From the NCBI GenBank assembly GCA_012845835.1, contig JABAKD010000029.1, positions 15,665,453-15,729,452 on the forward strand: DNA of 64,000 nt, given 5' to 3'. Source of the stretch: Undaria pinnatifida. Lineage: Eukaryota > Sar > Phaeophyceae > Laminariales > Alariaceae. The notes under the pieces were generated by a model that made no database searches, was not told the origin of the DNA, and saw nothing but the letters and a program-made list of their open reading frames with translations. Every line of letters starts with the position of its first letter. Within the stretch, counting starts at the first letter, position 1. Positions 1,172 to 60,265 of this stretch are shown here, piece after piece. Position numbers and translations under genes: made by a program.

Positions 1172-1249
1172 CTCCGTTTTCAGCGAAGTTGTTTGAAAAA
1201 ACCGTGGCACCGTCGATGTAGACTTCCGATGTATAGACGGACAAGGAAC
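1172..1249 (-). CDS. 78-nt internal exon of a Pmp-like parallel beta-helix protein
   Basis: On the minus strand a 78-nt segment is preceded by a pyrimidine-containing tract ending in CCGTAG (a 3' splice site) and followed by GTGAGT (a strong 5' splice site). It encodes exactly 26 codons in phase 1-1. The peptide has the beta-helix coil signature VYIDGATVFSNNFAENGG. The exon at 3059-3136 has the same length, the same phase and a very similar peptide, while the flanking introns do not resemble each other. This argues for two real exons of one gene rather than a recent duplication of genomic DNA. The family is extracellular or cell-surface by analogy; its ligand is unknown. The gene probably continues beyond position 1. 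RNA evidence is lacking, so the exon call rests on splice signals and peptide similarity. Confidence 0.65.
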
Positions 1250-1259
1250 CTACGGTTAG

Positions 1260-2180
1260 AGAGACGGGGCCATGGGCTAAGTAAGTTCACCGGAAGACAG
1301 GTTTATGACGATGCGGGCAGGTTGTGCATGTCAAATAGCGAGTTGAGAGAGCTTGATGTGTGATACATCCCTGTACGAAGAGTACATACAGTGATTCTCT
1401 TCGGGGTCGTGTAATTGTAGTAACGGGGGGTGATGGAACATGTAAGAAGAAGGCCCAAATCAAGCTGTAAGTTACGTTTTGGCGTATCTGTACGTTGTTA
1501 TTTGGTTCGCATAACACATGGTTGGTATTAGTGCGCTGGGGACATTTGTTCGTAAGTAGTAGTGGTTACACAAAAAAAAAAACAGCTGATCATATGGGCG
1601 GACGGTAGCAACGACAGGCACCAAAGTATTATGGCGCAGCACACTTACTTAGGTTCTATGTTCAAGACATACCTTGAGCAAGCAACAGTAAATCAGCCGT
1701 GACGAAAACGCCAAACATGGCGAACCGCCCTGACGATTCTATTGCGAAACGATCAAATATTTAGTCATTCCGTTCGGAACCACACGTGCGATCGGGATCG
1801 TGCCACCACAACTGATAACTCGTTCTTATGCTTTCTGGTACTTCCGTTTCTAGCAGCACGTTCGTGCCGGAAACCCATCACGATTGCTAAGCGATTATTC
1901 CACTATAATATTCTTCCGTTTCTTAGGGTTATCGACCACTGAATCTTCTTCTCTGTTGCGCCATCTGCTGGAGAAAAACCTTCGGGAGAGTGGGAGTCGT
2001 TCGACGTTAGCCCCCCCACATTTTCGTTAACGAAATCGCGGTTTTGAAACCAGCTGCCTGGCGTATCTCCTGAAAAACGGTGCCCCTTGTCCGCCGGACG
2101 TCATGGTTCGGCCGTGCTTTGCAAACAAGAAAATATGTGAAGATGGCATTCTACTACACAGCATCCTTCCTTGTCTCTAG
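1260..2180. other. Intronic or intergenic sequence, nothing recognised
   Basis: This stretch lies between two minus-strand beta-helix exons and is probably intron. It has scattered short open frames without protein character and no recognisable repeat apart from a short A-run near 1573. Confidence 0.35.
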
Positions 2181-2183
2181 CAG

Positions 2184-2238
2184 CCATGAACCATGACCAC
2201 GACCATGACCATGACCATGACCATGACCATGACCATGA
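2184..2238. repeat. Hexanucleotide microsatellite (CCATGA)n
   Basis: About nine near-perfect copies of CCATGA (ACCATG register) in tandem. In one plus-strand frame it reads as an M-T dipeptide repeat, but the frame is closed soon after and looks non-coding. It sits in the presumed intron between the two 78-nt beta-helix exons. Confidence 0.85.
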
Positions 2239-3058
2239 TTGATGATGAAACGTTCGTTAAAGATAATCGCTGGTTTTTGGGGGGTCTATCATGGAAACAG
2301 TCGTGGGCGGGAAAAATAAAATCTCAATCAGGAGGACTCGACGAAGTTTGTTGCCCGGCCGTCGGCTCTCAGGAGCTCGTGCTCCGTCATCCGTTCGCTC
2401 TCTATTCTGGACACGTTTCATCTTCCTCCGTCAGCGAGGTTTACTGTCTCGCGCCATCCACGCGTCTGTAGGTGACTATCCAACTCGCGTCTTTGATACT
2501 GTTCCATCACTGTTATTGCGCCAGCAGCGTGAGTAGAATCGGTGTTGGTAGACAACCGCATCCGACAAGAGGCACATCCACAGCGCAGCAAAACACTGCG
2601 CTACTTGATTCGTTCTTATACCAATACGCGGTTCAACCGTAAGCCAATTTTTTTCTGCGAGACCTCGAACATTGTTGTGGGGTCCTAAAGAAATATACTG
2701 TTCTAGCAAAGAAGGATCGGGGCACGAGCAGGTAGGAGGTAAGAGCGCGTTTGTACCAAACCAACCTCGCAGAAAGCTGCTACGGCATGAAATACCGGCT
2801 GAACAACGACTACAAGGCAGTATGCAAGTGCGAATAAAGCATTCGAAAGACGCTGCACCGCTCATCGCGATATCAGTGCATATATGGTGTGCCGAGTCGT
2901 ACTACATACAGTATACGCCTACCCTCGAAATATCTACAATGCCGTTCCCAAGTTTGATATGAAGGGTTTATTTGTGTGGGTAAGGTGTACCCGCTTTTCC
3001 CCCGATAGGCTTGCTCGCAGCTTTTCCTGTGATTTCCGAACACAAGACAGTCTCTTAC

Positions 3059-3136
3059 CTCCGTTTTCGGCAGAGTTGTTCGTAAAAAGCGTCGCACCGT
3101 CGATGTGGACTTTCGAGTCTCTGGCAGATATTGCAC
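3059..3136 (-). CDS. 78-nt internal exon of a Pmp-like parallel beta-helix protein
   Basis: A minus-strand segment bounded by CGCTGCAG upstream and GTAAGAG downstream, a canonical acceptor and donor. It is 78 nt long, phase 1-1, and encodes one 26-residue coil containing KVHIDGATLFTNNSAENGG. It matches the exon at 1172-1249 in length, phase and the IDGAT(L/V)F(T/S)NN-x-AENGG core. Exon 1 at 7137-7627 also ends in an NNNATTGG coil with the same GGA-G split codon. Each exon therefore appears to encode one rung of a right-handed beta-helix, and any exon could be skipped or duplicated without changing the frame. Intermediate exons may have been lost or gone unrecognised between here and exon 1. 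Confidence 0.68.
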
Positions 3137-3149
3137 CTGCAGCGGGCGC

Positions 3150-3890
3150 GGGTGAACGTGAGACACATTTTCCCATACGTGAGACGCATACATGCGATGG
3201 CCGTTAGGATTAGTCACTCGTGAACCAACGCAAGTCGAGTTGGGGCCGATATTGTATTAAACGGGCGATATGTAGGCCACAAGTGGCCAACACCAATTTA
3301 CGTGGCATCGAGTAACCGGCTTGGTCGGACCCGCGTTCGATCACACGCCAAAGTGCAGCCTCGACAGACGCGCGCCGTTCCAACGCAAGATAGACGTACA
3401 AAACATGTTGCAGTACGACAGCCGTGCTCAAGACCCGATGGCAGTACTCCCGCCTGGGGCTAATACGCGCTTATGAGAATGAAATCATTATCTGCTGGTA
3501 ACCAGGTGTGGTGTCGTGGGAGTGACGTCGATAACGCGTTAGATGGTTCCTAAATGTATTTCCACTATCCTGCAGTAGACGTACAGCACACATGGTAATT
3601 TATCTTAGCAAGATGGTGTACCTCCTGCTAAACACATCGACCGGTAAAGCTGTCGTCGAGTACGTGCACGACGTTCTGACGTGTGGCTTCTGGGGTGATT
3701 TGGAGCCTTTTTGGTGTGTGTGGACCCTTCCCGAGAACACTACATTTCGATGAGAACAGATACTCACAAACGTCGTGCCTACGGTACACGGCCAGGGTGA
3801 AGGTACGCATATTATTGCACAGGGATCTGAGGAGTTAGGAAAACAGGCATCCCACCTTAGGGGGTGCAGGTTTTGTGTTAGCTGATGCTT
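3150..3890. other. Presumed intron, nothing recognised
   Basis: This lies between the beta-helix exon at 3059-3136 and the minisatellite at ~3895. No conserved protein or repeat family was recognised. I looked for a further 26-codon coil exon with acceptor and donor here and did not find one. Confidence 0.35.
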
Positions 3891-3894
3891 GTGA

Positions 3895-4310
3895 TAGTGA
3901 ATGTGTCCTTTGTGATAATGAATGCTTCCCTCGTGATAACGAATGACAATGCAAGTACTTTGTGCTAATGAATGTTTCCTTTGCGATAATGAGCGTGTCC
4001 TTTGTGATGATGAATGTTTCCTTTGTGATCATGAATGTTACCTTTGTAATACTGAACGTTTCCTGTGTGATCATGAATGTTTCCATTGTGATAATGAATG
4101 TTTCCATTGTGATAATTATTGTTTCCATTGTGATAATTAATGTTTCCATCGTGATAATGAATGATAATAAATGTTGTGATGATGAATGTTTCCTTTGTGA
4201 CAATGAATGATAATGAATGTTGTGATAACGAATGTTTCCCTTGTGATACTGTAATTAAGGTGTCTTTTGTGGTAATGAATGTTTCCTTTGTGATACTGAA
4301 TGATGATGAT
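3895..4310. repeat. 21-bp minisatellite, about 20 degenerate units
   Basis: Tandem copies of roughly GAATGTTTCCTTTGTGATAAT with a 21-bp period, plus some 12- to 30-bp variants towards the right end. Because 21 is a multiple of three, several frames stay open for long distances. On the minus strand it reads as a heptapeptide repeat of the type METFIIT/KETFIIT, and on the plus strand as ECFLCDN. I consider these frames a by-product of the period rather than a gene. It is located inside the presumed intron between beta-helix exon 1 and the 3059-3136 exon. Confidence 0.85.
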
Positions 4311-4329
4311 AATGAGTAAGGTTGACCTC

Positions 4330-4898
4330 CTCAATTGGGAAACTACTAGTAGTGGTTGTTTGTTGAGAGTATAAACCTTGGGTTTAGATCTAAGTTAATG
4401 CGCAGTATATTCAAGCAGTCTATTCGCACGAATGAGATGTGCAGTTGAAACTTGGGTGTAAACGTAGATTCGAGTATGTTAAAGATGTCCCGCGTTGTCC
4501 CGGTATTCTGTCGGACTACGGGCAATGTTCCGTGAAGATCGAGTGATGCAACGCACCATGATTGCTTTCCCTTCTCGCTCCTCCCTCCTTTTTCTCTTTC
4601 CTCTTCTTTTGTCTTTGGCCTCAAGCACCCTTTTGCAAACTATCCATCATCACAAGTGATCTTAATATACCACCTCTGCATTTCATCGCATAGAAGACAG
4701 AGCCTCCACGCAACCATTGTGTTCACAAGCTTTTTACAGGTTTTGAGTCTTCGACCTTCGATATAAAAACCGATCCACACCCAGCGATATCACATTGAAG
4801 ATTGTTGTATCTTTCCGGGACGTTTGAGAGGAAACCTTCAATAAGCCGGCTACAGCATCAGCATTAGCATCAGCGATCAGCATCAGTATAACCATCAC
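4330..4898. other. Unassigned; possible 5' end of the Copia relic
   Basis: No gene was recognised. The last ~200 bases run directly into the Copia gag start at 4900 and could be its leader or part of a 5' LTR. I could not find a matching direct repeat downstream, so no LTR is called. Short AGCATC repeats occur at 4855-4885. Confidence 0.3.
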
Positions 4899-4899
4899 C

Positions 4900-6370
4900 A
4901 TGGGAAAGTCCACGAAAGCAAGTGATGCGGTAGACAAGCTCGTTAGAGCTCTCGACGGCAAAATTAACGGGCTCAAGTTCGACGTATGGAAAGGCACGGC
5001 TCAGTCCGTGATAAGTGTGCGTCATACCGGGATCTCGGATATCCTGGAAGGGCGTCCTTACCCCGAGCCCGCACGAATTAGTCCTCGTTCATCTTCTATT
5101 ACAAGTAGGCCTTCACGAGCTGTAACTCGCAGCCAGGCCGCTAACGAAACCGACACTCAGTCCGGGGGAACACCCCCGGATGAAACAGCAGAGAAAGTAC
5201 AACCGGACGCAGGGAATGCTCCCGTGGACACGGAGCATCTGCCATAATCTTTACGATATTCTACACTCCCAGCCGCAACACCAGTGTTATGGGCCACGGA
5301 TGACAACATCTCAAATTTGTAAGATATCAAGAACTGGCACCGCAACAACCGTCTTCTTTTCGACTTCTTGTTCCTGAGCACACCGGGAGCTGCTGTCAAC
5401 TTCCTTCTACACTTCAAGCCAAAACAACGTGAACTTGCGAATGGGAAGGCTGCTTGGGATGGTATGGATACAAAGCATCAAAATGGTACCGATAATGTAA
5501 ACGTAAAATTTATAAACAATTAAATCAAATGGTCACGACGGATGGGCAAGACCCAGACATATTCATCAATGAAGTATACTAATTTCGGTATAAACTGGTG
5601 GACATGGGAGAGGTATTCAACGATGATAGCATACTGGGCGTAGTGACGGAAGGACGGACGGATAAATACCTTCAAATAATATATAGCGCGAGAAGCAGAT
5701 GATGAAATCACACCCGACCGAGCTGTGATAATAAATGGAGCTATGCAATAGGGGCCTTCGCGAATAGCGAAGGGGCGTGAGTCTGCTATGGTAGTCACGT
5801 CAACACCTTCAGCAGTAGTGATCTGTTCACACTGCAAAAAGCCAGGCCATCGATTCTAAAATTGCTCTAAACGAAAGAGAACGATGTCGGGGAATAAACA
5901 TCCCACAACACCTCGAAAACGTTCGTTATGTAGCCTGCATAATGACGATCGCCACGATAATAGCGACTGTCGGTCTCATATGCGGGACGACAACGTAACC
6001 CGTCGCCCTCGTCCTGGCCAACAAATTGGCCGGCATAGTAACAACCGCAGCGCTCACGCCAACACTGCACAACTCTAATTCCAAGAACGCAAGTGGAAGC
6101 TTACGTCCCAGGGACACATGCTCTATCCACTACTGCGGCTGCGACTACAGAATATACTTCCACGTCCTTTGCGACTCCTCCCTGTCCATCCTCACCTCCA
6201 GTTGGTATAGGTTATTCTTTCATCGCCGCACCTCCGATCAACATCGCCGCACTGCCCGTCGACTTCTCCATGACCACGGACAGCGGAGAGTCCAGCCACT
6301 TCATTGACAAGCAGCGTCTATTGGATAACAACTGGCAACCACTTCCACGTCTACAGGCATGGTAGCACGC
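4900..6370 (+). pseudogene. Degenerate Ty1/Copia gag and aspartic protease
   Basis: The open N-terminal part (4900-5247, 115 codons, starting MGKSTKASDAVDKLVRALDG) resembles the N-terminus of brown-algal Copia Gag. The same coding sense then continues through frameshifts and stops: ELANGKAAWDGM near 5430-5460, and segments reading DGQDPDIFINEVYY and LVDMGEVFNDDS in shifted frames between 5530 and 5640. A zinc knuckle lies at 5824-5865 with C-x2-C-x4-H-x4-C spacing (CSHCKKPGH...NC), interrupted by an in-frame TAA at 5857. The protease motif is at 6279-6290 and reads D-S-G-E followed by SSHFID; families of this type normally have D-S-G-A. Gag packages element RNA and the protease matures Gag-Pol, but this copy cannot make either protein intact. 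It is antisense to the beta-helix gene and lies in its presumed first large intron. Confidence 0.75.
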
Positions 6371-7130
6371 TCCTATGGTTGTCCCCAGTTAATGGTTTTT
6401 GTGTCGACTTATGCCCTTTGTTAATTGTGAAATGGGGAACACCTCCCGCGCGACTGGACATATCATCCGACAAAAGCAATGTTAAGAGAGGGAAGATCCG
6501 AAAGAAAGAGGACACCACAACCCTATTGAGACACCAGAGGGGAAGCACGCGGAAACCAACCAATGACAATGGCGTCGATCGGCTACCCGAAGCAGTTCGG
6601 GGTTTTGAGGCAAGAAATGATTCCTCACTTCGATGCATGTACCTGCACGACGCGTTCGGCATTATATACTGCGGTACACTCTTCCTTGACAGGTGGCATT
6701 ACATACTGCGATACCTCCCATTGTCTCGCGTTTTCGATCGCAATATATCTGCCAGCCAAAAGAGGCCGAAACCGACCATCTCAGCCGCATTACGGTCACC
6801 ACTCGCTCGACCGCCATTGCCAATTACCAGGATAGGTTGTAGTGCGTTCTGAGTGAGCGTAGGCAATGCATAGAGAGGCGAAGAAGCGATGTCAACAGCA
6901 TTCAGTCTGTTGCCGATTGAAATAACCGACCAATGGAGAGATGAATGCCCAGTTTATGGGGACACACTTCTGGTTGTGGTAACTGTTGACTGGTTGTGGC
7001 AACTATTGTAATAACTACCCTGTCCGTACACAATCACGACGGCTTGTGATAAAGTGGGACGTGGTAGCACTGGTGTTCGACTGTTTTGGTAGTAGTTCCT
7101 ACAGTAGCAGCGTAAGCCTTCCATGCAATG
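6370..7130. other. Degenerate Copia continuation and intron sequence
   Basis: The first ~450 bases may be the decayed region after the Copia protease; a plus-strand frame stays open from 6304 to 6852 but its peptide has no family I recognise. From ~6950 to 7130 the sequence would be the intron that follows beta-helix exon 1 on the minus strand. No domain can be supported. Confidence 0.3.
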
Positions 7131-7136
7131 TATCAC

Positions 7137-7627
7137 CTCCAGTTGTGGCATTGTTGTTCTTGAAGGTGCAGTCAAACACATGCATGGAGCTGGATGATAG
7201 CACGACGACCGCCCCCCCATCCTCTGAACGCCCCCCCTCCAGGACCAAGGCGTTCACGGTGAGAGTAGACCCGCCAGAAACCAGGAATATGCCGATGGAA
7301 TTTCCGACGTCTGTGACAGCACTCGATTCGGCGCTGTCGAGTGCGTCGTCGAGTGTCGCCGCACTAATAGTAGGTAGCCCTTCTCCAGTGATGGTCACCG
7401 TCTTCTGATCGGACACCTCGATCCTCTGTTGGATTTGCACGCTGTTGTACAATGTCGCGTCAAAGAACCCTTCTCCGCTGCAGTTCATCGCATCCGTAAG
7501 ACTCTGTATGTCAGCGGTTGTAGTAAGGTCCATTGAAACAGTCTCAGATGGGCATGCAACAAGTTCTGCTCCTGAGATGAAGGAGGTTGTCCACCCAGCC
7601 AGAACGACGACGACGCCTAACATCATC
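7137..7627 (-). CDS. First coding exon of a secreted Pmp-like beta-helix protein
   Basis: On the minus strand the ATG at 7626-7624 (MMLGVVVVLAGWTTSFISG) begins a hydrophobic signal peptide of about 19 residues, followed by a Cys-containing N-terminal domain (cysteines in VACPSE and AMNCSGEG) and the first beta-helix coils (VTITGEGLPTI, GIFLVSGGSTLTVNALVLEG, MHVFDCTFKNNNATTGG). The ATG is immediately preceded by a poly-T tract and AACAG, a 3' splice site, so there is probably an upstream 5'-UTR intron. The frame is open for 163 codons plus one base, up to GGAG at 7137, followed by GTGATA as donor. This gives the same phase-1 GGA-G split as the two 78-nt exons. Read without splicing, the frame ends about ten codons later. 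The protein is predicted to be secreted or surface-exposed. Brown algae have many such proteins, of unknown role. Start and signal peptide are clear; the total exon number is not. Confidence 0.68.
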
Positions 7628-13759: not shown

Positions 13760-16700
13760 CGGTACAATATTTGAAGTGCGCAGGTTCTGCTTACTGCCCA
13801 AAGCGTGATCAATTTGCTTTTGGGAGGTCGAAAAACACTGTTTTGCGTGCTGGTGTCGGACACCAGCCGAAAGCAATGGAAGACCCCACAGCAGCAAGAG
13901 GAGCGTGAGCGCAGGGCGCTGGCGGGGTCCATCCTCCATGTTAGGGTAGCCACAAAGGTGGAGGCCAAACCGGTGGGGGGCTGAAGCCAGAAAGTCAAGG
14001 TGGCGATTGCAGGAGACAAGCCACTTAGCCTGGGTGATGATGTTGTTACCTTCGAAGATATGCGCGAAATTCTTGATACGTACTCGGAGCACGAGCAGCA
14101 GATTCATATCCCAAACCTATATGGAGGGGACCGAGTGCTCGAGAAGAGGTGATCTCGAGCTGGTAGATTCAACGACCGGAATGATGGTGGCTGGCGAGTT
14201 CTACGATGATGAGCCTTGCGTCGACCTCTCCAAAGCAGAGCTAATTCAAGGGCTCATGACGTTTGCTGACGTTGATATGCAGCAGACGGGTGATGAATAT
14301 TTTCGCCCCACGTATTGCGCGTGCTGAAGATGGAGGCGAGCGTTCCAGTAGATAACAGGATGTTCGTGAAAACCGCGCCTTGATGAAATGCCTTGCTGAC
14401 AGCGGGCTCACGGAGGTTGTAAAGCTTAAAGGTCGGCAGTACACGCTAAAGCATTGCAAGGTGCTGGCTGAAGCAATAGCGGCGGCAATCGAGCCACTCG
14501 AGTTCCACCGCATGGTGGAGAAAAGGATGCGTTTTCGATCTCTTAATGCATGAGTTTAACGCTTTGCTCAACTTTATTGCCAAGTAGGTACAAGACCAAG
14601 CTGTAATCGAGGCCAATGCTGCTGAGGTTAGACGAACGAGAAAACAGCTTGACGCAAGGTCGGTGGTTGCTGCGGTGACCAAGCTGCTGGAAATTGCTGC
14701 TGACGAGCACGACCCGCGCGAGAGTGCCAAGGTTGTGGTGTAATAGCAGAGCGGAATCGCCGGTACGACAACAACGAGTGTTTTGTGTGTGGCAAGCAAA
14801 GAGGTCACAAGAAGGAAGACTGCCCCCAAAGCTAGCAGGATAAGACCGGGGAAGGCGTCCATGGCCAGGGCCATGGCCAGACGCCCATGCGGCAGCACGA
14901 GTCCACAAGCGGTTCCGCTCAGCATACCCGCAGCAAAGCAACCGGGATAGCCCCTGCGCCTGCCACCGCTCGAGCTACCGGGTACAAGACCGCCTCAAAC
15001 GAGGTGGGTTTCAGAGGCCGAACCTGCTGCGCCTGACGCATTTACACAGACGGATGACGATTACGTGTACATTCGCGTGCCGCGGGGGAAGACGACGCCA
15101 GTGGATAACGGGCTCGTCGAGAAAAGGTTTCCCAAAGCGCTGGGCCACATGATGCAGCACCAGTTCTTCACTACCTTACTGTGCAGCCGCCGGCACCCGC
15201 ATCATAGCAGTGGCGTGGAGATTCCAGCACCATTTATTCTGCACGTGTCTCGGTTTTACAATCTGGTGGAAGTGGTTATACGAGCGTGGATACGGTGGAG
15301 ACCCAACACCCATATGGAGGCCCTGATGCAGCATGTCGTGGAGCATCTTGCGGTTCCCGGTGTTTCCGCGTCTTTCGAGGTCAAGGTGCTCGTGGATTCT
15401 AGCTCAGACATTACCGAAATATCGGAGGGGCTAATAGAGGTCCTGCAGGGACACAGCGGCAATGAACCAAACCGCGTTAACGCAGGCATTGTTGAGCATG
15501 AGCGTTTAGTAACGTCGTGGGCCTGGAGTGTGCTATTGAGACGCAATCGTGTCCGTTCCACTTAACGAAGGAAACGTCAAGCGAACCAGTACGGTTTACC
15601 GTGCCCTTAATCGTGTTCGTTGCGGGAGAAGATGTGGTTATTATCGCGCAGAAGGCGGTGAGAGACAATCTCGGCATCGACGTGGTGGCGAAGCTCAAGG
15701 CATCTGTACTAAATGCATGCGGGTGTCAAGATTGCGCAGGGGTGGAGCTTACAGATTGTGCAGTGGGCGACGGCATCGACGTGGTGGCGCAGCTCAAGGC
15801 ATCTGTACTAAATGCATGCGGGTGTTAAGATTGCGCTGGGGTGGGGCTTATAGATTGTGCAGTGGGCGATCCCAACGCTGGTGCTGTAATCCGGGCCGCG
15901 ATTGCTGTCACGGCTTTTGAGCTGGGCAGCGATGCACCAGGTGACGTGGGCAACAACGTCACGCTGATTCTGCCGTCTTAACGACCCATGATATTCTATC
16001 ACTCCGAGGTGGAGACGCAGGATCGTGTGGGCGTGTTGGAGGCGGCTGTGGACAAGTCTGTTGACCATGACTCCCCGTCGGAATGTGCCAAGCTGCTGCG
16101 CGATATCGTTTTTCGCACGCACCTTGACGTTCTTCATCGGGGGGTTGTGTGCGACCCATCTGAATGGGTGGGGCCTATGGCGGTGCGGAGGTGCAAAGGT
16201 GTTGTGGGCGAAGCCCCAACCAGAATGTAATCGCCTACCGTGAAATGTGGCAGTTTTGCTCACACGGCCGAGGGGTGGTGACGACGAACTTGTCGTCAAG
16301 ATGCCCGTTAAGGGCCGGGGGAGGCGGCGAGCACCTGAAAGCCGGTGTCGCGCGTGTTTCATTACGCGCTGGGCCGTACTGTTTGAATAGATCTCAAGGC
16401 GCTGCGGCTGAATGCGGAGCAAACGCGGGGACTCGTACAGGGGTACGGGTTGCGTTTTTGATTATATTTTGGTTTTGGGGGAGTCCCGGATTCTGTGTTG
16501 CTGACTTTCGCTTTTATTCTGACTTTGAATCTCGAGGTTTACTGAGTTGGAGTTTCTATGTCGGGCGCTGACAGTGCCTGACGCAGCCACAGGTGGCGGT
16601 TCATCGCGGAGACTGTCCGTAGACAGAGCATTTGGGTAAGGGTTGATGCTTCCGTTCTACGGGTGTTGATTGTACTGGAATACATATTCCGTGTGTGGTC

Positions 16701-19689: not shown

Positions 19690-19960
19690 TCGGTAGTTCT
19701 ATTGTTCTTTGAGGTGCGGTTTTTCCTATCGGTTCGGTGCGGTTCGGTGCGGTAACCCTAACCCTAACTCTAAGCCCTAACCCTAAGCCAACTTTAGATC
19801 GATGTTTAAACGGAGCGATTTACTTGAAACCGTAGACGAACCGCGGTTGGTTCCATCTACCGTGGAACCATGCTATAGGGTCACGTTTTTGTACGGTTAC
19901 GGTTCATCACGGTTGTTCACGTTTGGTCGTCCAAGGTGTACGTGCATAAGTATTCCCGCT
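19690..19960. repeat. Family F CGGTTCGGTGCGG repeats with telomere-type motifs
   Basis: CGGTTCGGTGCGGTTCGGTG at 19729-19750 runs straight into CCCTAA-type units (19751-19793), and GAACCGCGG, GGTTCCATC and CGGTTACGGTTCATC elements follow. The same CGGTTCGGTGCGG word, in inverted orientation, recurs at 26690-27045 and 28400-28500. Confidence 0.6.
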
Positions 19961-20433: not shown

Positions 20434-21894
20434 CTATGATCGCCCGGGTGTGCACTTACGGTTGAAGGTGCGGTTGCTGAAAGCTGAGGTGGTCGAGACG
20501 ATTCTTCACGGCAGCATGACGTGGAGCCCGAACAAGCTTGACTATGACAGGTTACGACGGGTTTACCAGTCCATGCTCCGCCGATGCTCTAGATCGCGGA
20601 AACGTAAGCGCGACGACCGCACCCTATCGTACGGCGATGCGCTTGCCAAGACAGCTTTCGAGAGCATAGAGGCGATAGTGCGCAAACGGAGAGTATTGTT
20701 TGCGGGATTCGTAGCACGTATGAGGCAGGAGCGTCTGCTACAAATGGTGATGTTCGGGGAGCTTGTTGGGGGCAAAGGCAGGTCAGGGGGGCAAGAGAAA
20801 GACTAGATGGATCATTTGAAGGAGGATATGTCGGTCTTAAGAAATATATTCGAAGGGTGGCGAAAGGCTGCTCAGAAAAGTGGCAGATGGTTTTTACGAG
20901 TAGAGGAGGGAGACGAGTTGTTCATCCGGAAATGGCATGAAAAGGAGAGACGCAAATGTGCAGAACGACGCGCAAAGGCTGAGGAAGCGCAATCTACCGT
21001 CGGCATCTCTAAGCCGCCGGGAGAAGGAGGAAGGATGGGGAGGGGGGGGGGGAGGGGAGGGGAGAAGGGGGGAAGGGGCAAGGGGAGGGGTGGTGAGGGG
21101 AAGGATGGAAAGGGGGACGGGGGAAGGGGGGGCGTCATGCTAACCCTAACCCTAACCCTAACCCTAACCCAAGAGACTGAAGTCTGGGTTTGGCCATCAT
21201 CGTCTTGAAAGTTGGGGGCCTTCCAATGGTCGTCACAAGATTGCGTGAGACCGAGACCGCCCTGAATTGTTCGCCATGTTGCGTTCTCTCCCCAGCGCCA
21301 TTGATGATGCACTTTACTGGTACCCTCTATAAGCCCAATGCCGTCTTTAGCCAGTGACCTGGGGTCTGCTAGCTTGACAGTTTTTTTGCTCTTTCCTTTC
21401 CTCGCTCTCTCTTTTGTCTTGTCTCTTCTTCTTGCTTTTCGTGTCTTTTCTTTTATTTCCTATCCTTTTTCGTTCATGCTTTCCCTTTCTTCTCTTTTCT
21501 TTTGTTTCCCGCATTATTATTTTCATTTTTTGCTTTTTTGCTTTTCCAGTTGACTTGCGTCAGTCGTGCATGTGCGCAGTAATATATACTACGTGTGATA
21601 CATACGTGGTATTCTTTCTTGGGTGGCAAGCGCAATCATCGGTTTTTCCATGCGCGAGTAGTGAGACGTATGCACCGGTATGGACCTGGCACATAGTAGA
21701 CTGACTCCTGATTTCACTCTTTTTTATGTTTCTGGTGGAGACATGAATTGCGTCAGCTGTTATATATGCGTGTACCACCTTGGGTTGTTTGTGTTTTTTC
21801 ACGGGGGGTATTCCTCAGCTCCAGCGAGACTGGAGCCTGTCCTGTGACCACGGACTTGATTATGCAAGTTAATGTGAGAACCACAACCACAACA
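20434..21894 (+). mobile_element. LINE-CAA copy, RT C-terminal region through 3' end
   Basis: Homology to the other LINE copy begins at CTATGATCGCCC (20434), the equivalent of ~30833. The frame 20450-20803 encodes the post-RT segment (RLKVRLLKAEVVETILHGSM, WSPNKLDYDRLRRVYQSMLRR), then a stop and the basic tail (MDHLKEDMSVLRNIFEGWRKA, EKERRKCAERRAKAEE). A G-rich run (21035-21130), a telomere-type array (21139-21170), the 3' UTR with a CT-rich tract (21380-21550) and a short degenerate (CAA)n (21875-21894) follow. The copy is 5'-truncated within the RT gene. Its upstream edge lies ~45 bp from the 5' end of the inverted SINE D. Confidence 0.8.
21139..21170. repeat. Telomere-type (CTAACC)5 inserted in the LINE 3' UTR
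   Basis: The sister copy at ~31500 reads GGCGTCATGCCCAAGAGACG. Here GGCGTCATG and CCCAAGAGAC are separated by ~27 bp of perfect CTAACC repeats. The array is therefore a precise addition relative to the homologous site. Confidence 0.85.
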
Positions 21895-28979: not shown

Positions 28980-29730
28980 GCATCGTCAGCTTGCCCAGTG
29001 TCTTTCGTGACTCTTTATCCTTATTGGAGAGGTACCTGGTACATACTTGTACATATCTCGTGACCATACGGACTTCTGTGCAACAGAAGGTATACAAGAT
29101 TAAAGTGTACCAATACCACAACTACATAATAAACAAGTTAAAGAAGACAGAGAATTCTGACTTACCAATGTGTAGCAAACAACAACCGAAATGCACCTAC
29201 CTGGTAACGTGTCGTGAAGATGTCCAAACTCGTTCGTAGCGCCTTAGCCCGAACACCGATCTCTTGCAGTTTATTTTTGGAAGCGTTTATCAACGGAGAT
29301 CTAGGGCCAGCCGGGGTGTGGGTCGGGGTGTGGGTCGCACACGCTGATAAATATGATGATACGCGTTGCACGCTGCTGCCGCCTTAATACGCAAGTGATC
29401 GATGGTCCGATCATCGCTTGGTCTCCTGTGTCTGGCCATCATCGCTTTTAGTCGTCGGTATGTCGCAACCCGCGAAGTTAAACTTCACTAAAATGACTTT
29501 TTTCGTCCCTCGGTCAAAATGAATCCTGTTTGGAAATTATTTTGTAGTTGATCTGTCCACCTGTACCGCTGACACAGGATGATGCAGCAAGCTTATCCGT
29601 GCGCATCCTCCAACGATCTTTCACCACGGAAGTTCCTAACGTTGGCTTTTCCGCGAACATGTTCTTTACAATAACTGCTCGTTCCACCCATCGATATTGA
29701 GTACAGTCCTCCCAATCAGTGTGTCGATAT
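28980..29730. other. Unassigned, possibly decayed LINE upstream region
   Basis: No domain is recognised. The last 100-200 bases could be the linker between endonuclease and RT of the LINE that becomes recognisable at ~29735, but I see no supporting motif. Confidence 0.3.
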
Positions 29731-29734
29731 CATA

Positions 29735-32237
29735 TACAGGGCCCGATGGTCTCCCGGCCGAGCTCTTGAAGGTTTTGGCCGACGAAGGAGAATGGAACAC
29801 CCTCGGAAACTTCCACGATATCATCGTCGCTGTGTGGAGGGGGGATGGCGTACCGCAACAATGGAAATATGCAACGATTAAGGTGCTTCACAAGAAGAAA
29901 GACCGGACTGAGTGTGGCAATTATCGTCACATCTCCTTCGTGGCTCACGCCGGCAAAGTACTCCTCAAAGTCATCGCTGGTCGCCTGACTGAGTGACTAT
30001 TGCGAACGCGAGAACATTCTGCCAGAGGAACAGTGTTGGTTCAGACGCCAACGCTCGACGGTTGACATGATGTTCGTAGTACGACGACTGCAGGAACTGG
30101 CGCGGAAGAAGGACACCCCCTTGTACATGTGCTTTATCGACCTCACCAAAGCATACGACTCCGTCGACCGAAGCCTTCTGTGGGATGTCCTTGCTCGTTT
30201 TTGCGTGCCACCGAGAACGCTCGACGTCATCCGCCATTTCCACGACAGTATGCAAGCATTCGTGCGGCTGGATGATGGAGAGTGCTCGGATAAGTTCGAC
30301 GTGGGGCAAGGTCTCAGGCAAGGATGCGTGCTCGCGCCACTGCTGATTAACATGTTTTTCACGGGTACTGCGTGTGGCCGAGAAACGTTTCCTCGCTGAT
30401 GCAGCCATCACGGACAACATGGTGCAGCTCCAGCGAAAGGAGGAAGGCGAGAAGAAGGACAGGCAAAGTCGACGGACGGAAGGGAAGGGATGGGGAGGGG
30501 GTGCAGAGATTTTGGGGTATGCTGTACGCGGATGATGCGGGCATAAGTATCGCGATAATCAGAAGGGCTGGAGAGGATTATGACTGTGATCGTGACTGCG
30601 TGCTCGTCGTTCGGGCTTACAGTATCCGATGCAAAAACAGAGATAATGTGCGTGGAAAACAAAAGCGGGGGGAAGGTGTGCTTCAAGATCAATGCAGCCG
30701 GCCAGATATGCGAACAAAAAATCCAGTTTGTATACTTGGACGGAACTATCACCGCAAACAGAGACCTAAGCATTAAAATGACGCGGCGTCTTCAGAGGGC
30801 CTGGGCGTGCTTCCAGCAGTACAAGAAAATCTATGATCGCCCATGTGTGCGTTCACGGTTGAAGGTGCGGTTGCTGAAAGTTGAGGTGGTCGAGACACTG
30901 CTGTACGGTTGCATGACGTGGAGCCCGAAGAAGCCTGACTATGACAGGCTACGACGGGTTCACCGCTCCATGCTCCTCCGCTGCCTTGAATGGCGGAAAC
31001 GGAAGTGCGACGACCACACCCTCTCGTACGCCAACGCGCTTGCCCAGACAGGTTCCGAGAGCGTTTGAGGCGATAGTGCGCAAACGGAGGATTGTGTTTG
31101 GGGGATTCGTCGCACGTATGTGGGAGGAGCGTCTGCCACAGAGTGTGATGTTTGGGGAATTTGTTGGGGGTAAGGGCTACTCAGTGGGGCAAGAGAAAGA
31201 CTGGATGAATCATCCGAAGGAGGATATGTCGGTCTTTGGAATGAAACTCGAAGGACATGGCGAAAGGCTTCTCAGAAGGCTGGCAGATGGTTTCTACGAG
31301 TAGAGGAGGGAGCCGAGTTGTTCATGCGGAATTGGCATAAAATGGAGAGACGAAAAGCTGCAGAGCGACGCGCAAAAGCTGCGGCAGCGCCATCCACCGT
31401 TGGCATCTCCAAGCGGGCGGTGGGGGGGGGAAGGGGGGGGGGGAGGGGGGAGGGGGGGAGGGGGAAAGGGAGGAAGGGGGGAGGAGGGGAAGGGGGGGGC
31501 GTCATGCCCAAGAGACGAAAGTCTGGGTTGCCATCATCGTATTGAAAGTTGTGGGCGTTGCGATGGCCGTCACAAGATTGCATAAGACCGCCATGACTTC
31601 TTCGCCATGGCGCGTTTTCTCCCAGGTGCCATTGATGATGGACGTGATACCCTATGTTAGCCCAATGCCATTCTTAGTCAATTCTTAGGGTCTGCTATTA
31701 ATAGTATAACATTTTTCTTCCTTTTCTTTTTCTTTTTCCTTTTTCTCTTGTTTTTCCTCGCTTCTTGCTTCCTCTTCTTGTCTTGTCTTTTCTTGCTTTT
31801 CTTGTCTTTTTCTTCTCTTTCTCTTTCTTTTGTTTTGTTTCGTTTTCTTTTCTTTTCTTTCCTTTCCGTTATCTTCGTTTCTTTTTTTTGTTTCTTTTCT
31901 CTAATTGACTTACGCCTGTCGTGCGTATGCGTAGTGCTAAATACTACGTGTAAAATATACGTGGTAGTCTTCCTTGGGTGGCAATCGGAATAGTTGGTTT
32001 CTCCAGGCGTGAGTAATGGGACGTATGCACCGGCATGGACGTGGCACATCGTAGACTGGCTCCCGATTTCACTTTTATATGTTCCTGGTGGAGGCATGAA
32101 TTGCGTCATCTGTGATCTATGCTTGTACCACCTTGGGTTGATTGTGCGTTTTTCCCTGGGGTATTCCTCAGCTCCAGAGTGACTGACTGGAGAGCCTGTC
32201 CTGTGACCACGGACTTCATTATGCGAGTTAATGTGAG

Positions 32238-49885: not shown

Positions 49886-49890
49886 ACTAG

Positions 49891-50024
49891 GAGTAGTAGT
49901 AGTAGTAGTAGTGGTAGTAGTAGCAGTAATAGTAGTAGTAGTAGCAGTGGTAGCAGTAGTAGTAGTAGCAGCAGCAGTAGTAGAAGTAGTAGTATTGGTA
50001 GTAGTAGTAGCAGCAGTAGTAGTG

Positions 50025-50057
<33 letters not shown>

Positions 50058-50093
50058 ATAGTAGTAGTAATAGTAGTAGTAGTAGTAGCAGTA

Positions 50094-50126
<33 letters not shown>

Positions 50127-50146
50127 ATAATAGTAGTAATAATGTA
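49891..50146. repeat. (AGT)n trinucleotide microsatellite
   Basis: About 85 triplets of AGT/AGC/AAT type in one block. It reads poly-Ser in one plus frame, poly-Val in another and poly-Thr on the minus strand; none has a flanking domain. One of the longest simple repeats in the window. Confidence 0.95.
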
Positions 50147-50149
50147 GTA

Positions 50150-59609: not shown

Positions 59610-60265
59610 TATATATATTATAAAATTAAAATACACTCCAGCTGTGAGATCGAAGATTTCGTCGAAACTCATCTTTGCAAGCTGTATATTATAAAAGTTA
59701 AAATACACTCCAGCTGTGAGATCGAAGATTTCGTCGAAACTCATCTTTGCAAGCTGTGTGTGATACTCCGATCGCGCGCATTACGAGTTGTGTGTCCTCA
59801 TTAAGGATATAGGTCGGCGACTCCCCTTACAGCTACAGTGTAGCTATCAGGGTCAACAGGATGATTTTAGTCTGTCTGTGCGCGGAAACTATAAAACCCG
59901 TTTCTGAGGGGGACAAAATCTGACGGCTGTGAAGGGAAAGGGGGGGCCTGGTTTTGATCAAAAGCGAGCGGGTTTGGAGGGGGGCGGGGGGGGGGGCGGG
60001 GGGGGGGGGGAAGGGGCAATTTGTGCATGTAAGCTATAAATCCTTTCGAGGGGATAAATCTGACGGTTTTGGCACCAGTATATTATTGGGGGCGGGGGGG
60101 TGGGGTTGGGGCGAAGGGGGGAGGGGGGCAGCTCGATATGTGCCTGGAAACTATACATTATTTCGAGGGGATAAATGTGACATTTTTGGAAATAATTCAT
60201 CAGTTTATCGTGTATATCCTGGGGTAAGTCGTACAATCAGTGAGTAAAGAGAGGGTGGAGTGTTC
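59610..60265 (+). repeat. Family A with duplicated head
   Basis: The first 68 bp (TACACTCCAGCTGTGAGATC ... TTTGCAAGCTGT) occurs twice in tandem (59630 and 59701), followed by the body, G-tracts at 59979-60012 and 60090-60128, and the GTGTATATCCTGGGGTAAGT module. Nearly the same sequence as 63095-63460. Confidence 0.85.

Follow-up and report, generated by a model that had tools for sequence, protein, structure and literature searches.

The brown alga Undaria pinnatifida appears to carry some 40 genes for large multi-pass membrane proteins whose outer part would be a stalk of repeated coils of the PMP/POMP type. The member described here starts near the low end of the window, i.e., the whole stretch of 64,000 nucleotides that was analyzed (contig C36, JABAKD010000029.1, positions 15665453 to 15729452), and runs out of it on the minus strand. 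In part of the family, each coil would correspond to one symmetric exon (phase 1-1) of 78, 81, or 84 nt, and the arrays would gain coils, and presumably lose them, through tandem duplication of units made up of an exon plus its intron, with unequal exchange within the introns as the presumable route. Owing to the symmetric phase, an added exon would contribute a whole coil without any frame penalty. The core of the coil would be kept while the other positions change almost freely, giving a fast-evolving stalk surface on a conserved membrane anchor, most likely with a role in contact or recognition. We consider this explanation, taken as a whole, to be probable.

Three exons of the gene lie in the window. 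Exon 1 (positions 7137 to 7626, 490 nt, phase 0 to 1) codes for a signal-like hydrophobic start, a lead-in, and the first PMP-type coils, and ends at a donor that reads GGAG|gtgata. The initial annotation of this DNA had placed the start at 7627, but the ATG lies at 7626. Then come intron 1 (3137 to 7136, 4000 nt), exon 2 (3059 to 3136, GAISARDSKVHIDGATLFTNNSAENG), intron 2 (1250 to 3058, 1809 nt), exon 3 (1172 to 1249, GSLSVYTSEVYIDGATVFSNNFAENG), and the start of intron 3 (1 to 1171), which leads to exon 4 beyond the window (C36:15663995-15663915). All of these features are on the minus strand, and introns 1 and 2 are both in phase 1 and bordered by GT-AG. Exons 2 and 3 each encode a single coil in 78 nt, phase 1-1, and each has a counterpart in a paralog on contig C22. 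Exons 1 to 3 have GT-AG borders, meet in phase 1, and, when joined, give 215 residues with no stop. The initial observation of two phase 1-1 exons of the same length (78 nt) with canonical splice sites is thus confirmed (they are exons 2 and 3 of 19), while the interpretation given to it then is partly supported, as detailed below. The two exons share 57 of their 78 bases and, in translation, 16 of their 26 residues; the base differences number 8, 4, and 9 at the first, second, and third codon positions, respectively. No further 78-mer of the window, on either strand, gets to 40/78 against exon 2 or 3, and a coil profile scan of the window gave the places of exons 1 to 3 above the threshold and nothing else beyond 6.2 bits. 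A comparison of the introns of exons 2 and 3 found no local match outside the exons, the only residuals being one chance match of 15 bases and bases from the overlap of the compared stretches or from the donor side (five, which are part of the exon match).

The gene was followed for 120 kb past the low end of the window by scoring AG..GT candidates with the coil profile, in phase 1 first and then in the three phases. The predicted gene has 19 exons spread over 57.6 kb (C36:15673078 to 15615522, exons 4 to 19 being outside the window), with 3,729 nt including the stop, i.e., 1,242 residues in an unbroken frame. A search for more symmetric coil exons, as proposed in the initial annotation, gave 11 additional single-coil exons outside the window, all phase 1-1; ten came from the phase 1 scan, and exon 13, first truncated, was set to 84 nt. 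The single-coil exons are therefore 13 consecutive ones (exons 2 to 14). Their length is not fixed at 78 nt as had been claimed, since the same gene has exons of 78 nt (2, 3, 5, 9, and 14), 81 nt (4 and 8), and 84 nt (6, 7, 10, 11, 12, and 13). In 13/13 of them, the borders of the repeat are the borders of the exon and the phase is the same, as in repeat-per-exon genes in general. Introns 1 to 15 are all in phase 1 and introns 16, 17, and 18 in phases 0, 1, and 0; the longest reach 17.4 kb. The donors of exons 1 to 14 all read GGAG|gt (14/14). Exon 15 (321 nt) contains about four coils, so one exon per coil is not universal even within this gene. On the plus strand of the 184-kb stretch there was a single weak coil match (11.3 bits), and a reversed copy and one shuffled copy of this stretch gave zero coil matches of at least 10 bits. 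No clear decayed coil exons were found in the introns of the gene, where the 13 strong matches are the 13 exons and the next one has an E value of 0.23. The predicted protein goes from the signal-like start through the coil exons and a Cys-rich part to about seven predicted membrane helices. Hydropathy gives seven hydrophobic segments between residues 813 and 1183 in addition to the start, and one more (111-129) within the coil region that is probably not a helix. The signal-like start and the predicted helices suggest, from hydropathy, a location at the surface.

The 13 aligned coils follow, with few exceptions, the consensus GA......G.T.F..N.A...GG, and the coil exons are cut inside the invariant Gly-Gly. 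The IDGAT signature first described for the rung is particular to exons 2 and 3, and what all 13 coils share is this consensus. Joined, exons 2 to 14 match the repeat of the polymorphic outer membrane proteins well above the cut-offs, at 124.1 bits for NCBIfam TIGR01376 POMP_repeat (cut-off 15) and 99 bits for Pfam Chlam_PMP (PF02415; cut-off 20.6). Exons 1 to 3 alone pass the former (26 bits) and are slightly below the latter (19.9 bits). By this family membership, the coil array would fold as a parallel beta-helix, each single-coil exon probably making up one turn. The PDB gave a match to 7w5z chain U2, "Transmembrane protein, putative" (E 6e-8, chain residues 3044-3241), which we take to be a Tetrahymena (ciliate) entry. 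It is a membrane protein with similar coils, but has 3,634 residues, and was compared by protein only. The membrane exon had no match in the PDB; PDB matches to designed Pizza propellers were taken as compositional and discarded. Among Pfam matches up to E 1, the five terminal segments of the gene contained no autotransporter barrel, and no match to a ROC or COR domain was found in these segments or in the joined coil array. No relative was confirmed in viral contigs (queried with exons 1 to 3 and the membrane exon) or in a set of genome contigs (queried with the coil array), and a phage collection gave one weak match (32% identity, E 9e-3).

We searched the genome (511,146,479 bases in 68 contigs) with a strict coil-exon pattern that includes the borders and leaves the exon length free between 78 and 84 nt. 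It had 258 matches, versus 1 for the reversed pattern. Together with the 78-mer comparison in the window and the reversed and shuffled controls, this led us to reject chance as an explanation. The pattern recovers 11/13 coil exons of the window's gene, so that 258 is probably a lower bound. Among the 100 matches listed, 98 are 78, 81, or 84 nt long, and the remaining two, of 83 nt (C13 and C31), are not coil-like in translation. A coil exon of at least 18 bits was present at 28 of the 30 matches whose loci were fetched, the exceptions being L017 (C13) and L026; at the two places given by an initial pattern search, no coil exon scored above 10 bits. With its own locus counted, the protein of exon 1 has 62 matches in the genome. 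The best 46 have E values of 2.7e-12 or lower, and in 44 of these the match extends as far as residue 164. For the membrane exon there are 117 matches, its own locus and fragments among them, and some carry stops. Linkage was assessed with the best 46 of the 62 exon 1 matches and the best 65 of the 117 membrane-exon matches, a link being a membrane exon that comes after exon 1 on its strand, at most 320 kb away and with no other first exon in between. Exon 1 is linked to a membrane exon in 39/46 cases, versus 10/46 in the strand-flipped control, and the linked intervals have a median span of 53 kb (range, 19 to 304 kb). The linked intervals, which make up 0.3% of the two-strand genome, contain 88 of the 100 coil matches listed, in 18 loci. 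This linkage, with the coils inside, supports the view that the three parts (exon 1, coils, and membrane exon) belong to a single gene, and the architecture recurs in the genome. In 32 loci (those of coil matches plus the C22 paralog), all 66 coil-exon detections from a scan open to all three phases were in phase 1, 65 of them measuring 78 to 84 nt and one 96 nt. The loci overlap, so exons recur among the 66, and the score favors borders at coil ends, so this count is supporting evidence only.

An apparently intronless paralog at C21:42578 (open frame of 1922 aa) turned out to be an artefact of an upstream run of N. Contig C36 has another copy of the gene on the same strand (15530764 to 15447409), beginning about 85 kb past the end of the window's gene; its identity is 87% in exon 1 as well as in the membrane exon. 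Eight of the 46 best exon 1 matches lie less than 250 kb from a contig start, versus about 1.5 expected if they were evenly spread, a number that small contigs may inflate. Contig C61 has eight exon 1 matches between 0.18 and 4.96 Mb, spaced by about 0.3 to 2.1 Mb and, therefore, dispersed rather than in tandem.

Coils are not bounded by exons everywhere in the family. Two relatives, L048 (C24) and L049 (C27), have stop-free open frames (691 and 592 codons, respectively) in which about 15 to 20 coils can be made out by eye. Membrane-exon matches follow them on the same strand (those of C24 fragmented, one with stops), and their exon 1 match is weak (E 1.6e-8 and 5.4e-4, respectively). One genome thus contains the coil domain both uninterrupted and with one exon per coil. 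The initial annotation had named homologs of this kind as evidence against it. They exist, and they limit the rule to part of the family without overturning it. In the same way, its equation of one exon with one repeat unit stands for the PMP/POMP-type coils of exons 2 to 14 and fails for exon 15 and these open frames.

How the arrays change can be followed in their introns. In the 40 bases before the acceptor, 10 of the 78 exon pairs of the window's gene agree at 20 or more positions, against a null rate of 0.0012, obtained by pairing pyrimidine-rich AG sites from this gene at random; the best pair, exons 7 and 12, reaches 28/40. The claim that the introns share no similarity therefore holds for exons 2 and 3 and not for the whole array. 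On contig C21, two copies about 8 kb apart (12660916 and 12668969) are 98.4% identical over 3,085 aligned positions and share a 78-nt exon that differs by one base and codes for the same protein, and two units of about 1.2 kb (12698050 and 12699281) are 89.9% identical over 1,228 aligned positions. These repeats look recent and indicate that exon and intron have been duplicated together, in tandem, which bears out, within this family, the early proposal of frame-neutral changes of length by exon duplication. Both copies of each pair are likely to be in one transcript. Within the window's gene, a duplication of a four-exon block (5-8 into 9-12) is suggestive, its score being reached by 148/5000 permutations (700/5000 for three-exon blocks). 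The C22 paralog has one counterpart for each of exons 2 to 13, in unchanged order, and exon 5 differs in length by one codon; this locus was fetched in part, and extra coil exons are possible in the remainder.

The C36/C22 pair also provided substitution rates. The 12 coil exons differ by 54 nonsynonymous and 17 synonymous changes (omega 0.94), while omega is 0.53 for exon 1 and 0.18, over 312 codons, for the membrane exon. The contrast between coils and membrane exon has a p value of 4e-5 (rounded counts), and that between coils and exon 1 has one of 0.17. Against the second C36 copy, a comparison that covered exon 1 and the membrane exon, the values are 0.40 and 0.28, respectively. Exon 5 aside, 11 exon pairs match in length; in these, amino acid changes affect 2 of 88 residues at conserved columns and 44 of 212 elsewhere, with a mild circularity because the conserved columns were picked from the exons of the window's gene itself. 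The core of the coil is constrained in this pair.

Several results weigh against the explanation that we favor. Manual placement was used for the five terminal exons, and the gene model is a prediction from sequence. Not all the elements are linked: 7 of the 46 exon 1 matches have no membrane exon, and 12 of the 100 listed coil matches are outside the intervals (two are the 83-nt ones, and ten are on C21, C27, and C33 with membrane-exon matches nearby). The tandem locus of C21 itself has a membrane-exon match and no recognized exon 1. The conserved order of exons 2 to 13 in C22 means that no reshuffling is seen since the C36/C22 duplication, and the open-frame homologs of C24 and C27 indicate that the coil domain does not depend on the exon-per-coil layout. 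Diversifying selection at the variable columns was not significant (omega 1.31, bootstrap 0.75 to 2.86, with 18% at or below 1), and relaxation fits equally well. Besides, the coils show less synonymous divergence (0.08) than the membrane exon does (0.20), with a p value of 0.002 for which the sites of the membrane exon were counted approximately; the omegas therefore need care, and their simple reading is weakened. Gene conversion is possibly behind this low value.

Some of these points would be expected of a passive spacer, i.e., a structural stalk in which length and outer residues drift almost freely, duplications are tolerated, and recognition plays no part. The omega of the coils, near 1 and not clearly higher, and the same exon order in C36 and C22 fit such a stalk, but 46 exon 1 and 258 strict coil-exon matches have been retained in the genome and the core columns are constrained (2/88 changes), and we give it a substantial chance that is still well short of even. 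Combinatorial splicing of cassettes, in which varying subsets of coils would generate many protein forms per gene, is a more tentative idea. All 13 coil exons could be skipped in frame, and multiple splice variants have been reported for the LRR-per-exon ROCO genes of brown algae (PMC11378527); however, the uniform GGAG|gt donors of exons 1 to 14 are also compatible with constant inclusion. Slightly more doubtful still is the wider proposal that about 40 membrane-protein genes, with several hundred single-coil cassette exons between them, form an alternatively spliced, fast-turnover recognition system based on beta-helices instead of Ig, LRR, or TPR.

The exon-per-coil layout could also have arisen by successive insertion of introns into a coil domain that was once continuous, with its repeated GGAGGT motif acting as a proto-splice site. 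All the donors of exons 1 to 14 are in an identical motif and the C24 and C27 relatives keep their coils in a single open frame, but the acceptor flanks are too similar (10/78 pairs exceed the null) and the recent tandem copies include exon and intron together, which makes this origin unlikely; insertion may still account for the first interrupted ancestor. Very improbable, finally, is a decaying or misjoined set of exons instead of one working gene. It would suit introns of up to 17.4 kb, junctions deduced from the DNA, and the stops in some membrane-exon relatives, but the frame is unbroken through 19 exons, the omega of the membrane exon is 0.18 and 0.28 versus two paralogs, and the order of exon 1, coils, and membrane exon recurs (39/46). 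A family of coil stalks changing by duplication of exon units remains the explanation that we prefer.

The nearest known kind seems to be the brown algal ROCO genes, which have one LRR per exon and with which the modular logic would be shared. According to PMC11378527, these LRR-ROC-COR genes have a 72-nt phase 2 exon for each LRR, and splice variants are reported. The likeness extends to one repeat per short symmetric exon, tandem arrays, variable exposed residues, a gene family, and a proposed role in recognition; the differences are LRRs, 72-nt phase 2 exons, and GTPase domains there versus PMP-type coils, phase 1 exons of 78, 81, or 84 nt, and a multi-pass membrane part here. The same source cites (Zambounis 2012; Teng 2023) the brown algal NB-TPR genes, whose TPR exons are shuffled. 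According to what it says of them, they also have repeat-per-exon arrays proposed to diversify recognition, but with TPR repeats and an NB domain and no PMP coil. The repeat motif of the window's gene is common to the polymorphic outer membrane proteins (TIGR01376/PF02415), whose type members are the chlamydial Pmp. The latter are bacterial autotransporters with a C-terminal beta-barrel. Here, in contrast, hydropathy gives helices and the five terminal segments have no Pfam barrel match. By its predicted domains, the window's gene is neither a ROCO gene nor a chlamydial autotransporter. Animal extracellular modules (EGF, Ig, and others) are encoded by phase 1-1 exons as well. They resemble the coil exons in being symmetric and duplicable in frame, but their unit is a whole domain, whereas here it is one coil within a continuous solenoid. 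In a kelp transcriptome, a transcript with the same annotation is reported to have been altered by iodine/cadmium treatment, a comparison made by annotation alone. No description of PMP-type exon arrays was found in the literature covered, many subscription papers being outside that coverage.

Other features of the window are of a different nature. At about 29640 to 31068, on the plus strand, there is a degenerate LINE-type reverse transcriptase spread across frames, recognized by reading the translations, and one unspecified segment of the 120 open segments scanned in the window matched RVT_1 (2.1e-15). The window ends about 50 kb short of the end of C36 (15779598) and has short TAACCC/CTAACC arrays at 19753-19789 and 21140-21170; from the proximity of the contig end and these arrays, its setting is perhaps subtelomeric. 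There are two-copy tandem duplications at 15672-15869 (99 bp, 94% matches) and 59614-59757 (72 bp, 98% matches) and a TAG triplet repeat at 49888-50149 (87.7 copies, 84% matches). No RNA family match and no tRNA were found in the window.

The architecture of receptors with one repeat per exon, so far LRR and TPR in brown algae, would be extended by this family to the PMP-type coil, carried on a multi-pass anchor. The presence in one genome of open-frame versions, exon-per-coil versions, and recent tandem copies makes the origin of exon modularity in a solenoid directly testable, and the same contrast can be used to test whether this modularity speeds up solenoid evolution. If the arrays were combinatorially spliced, they would represent a further, independent repertoire for recognition.

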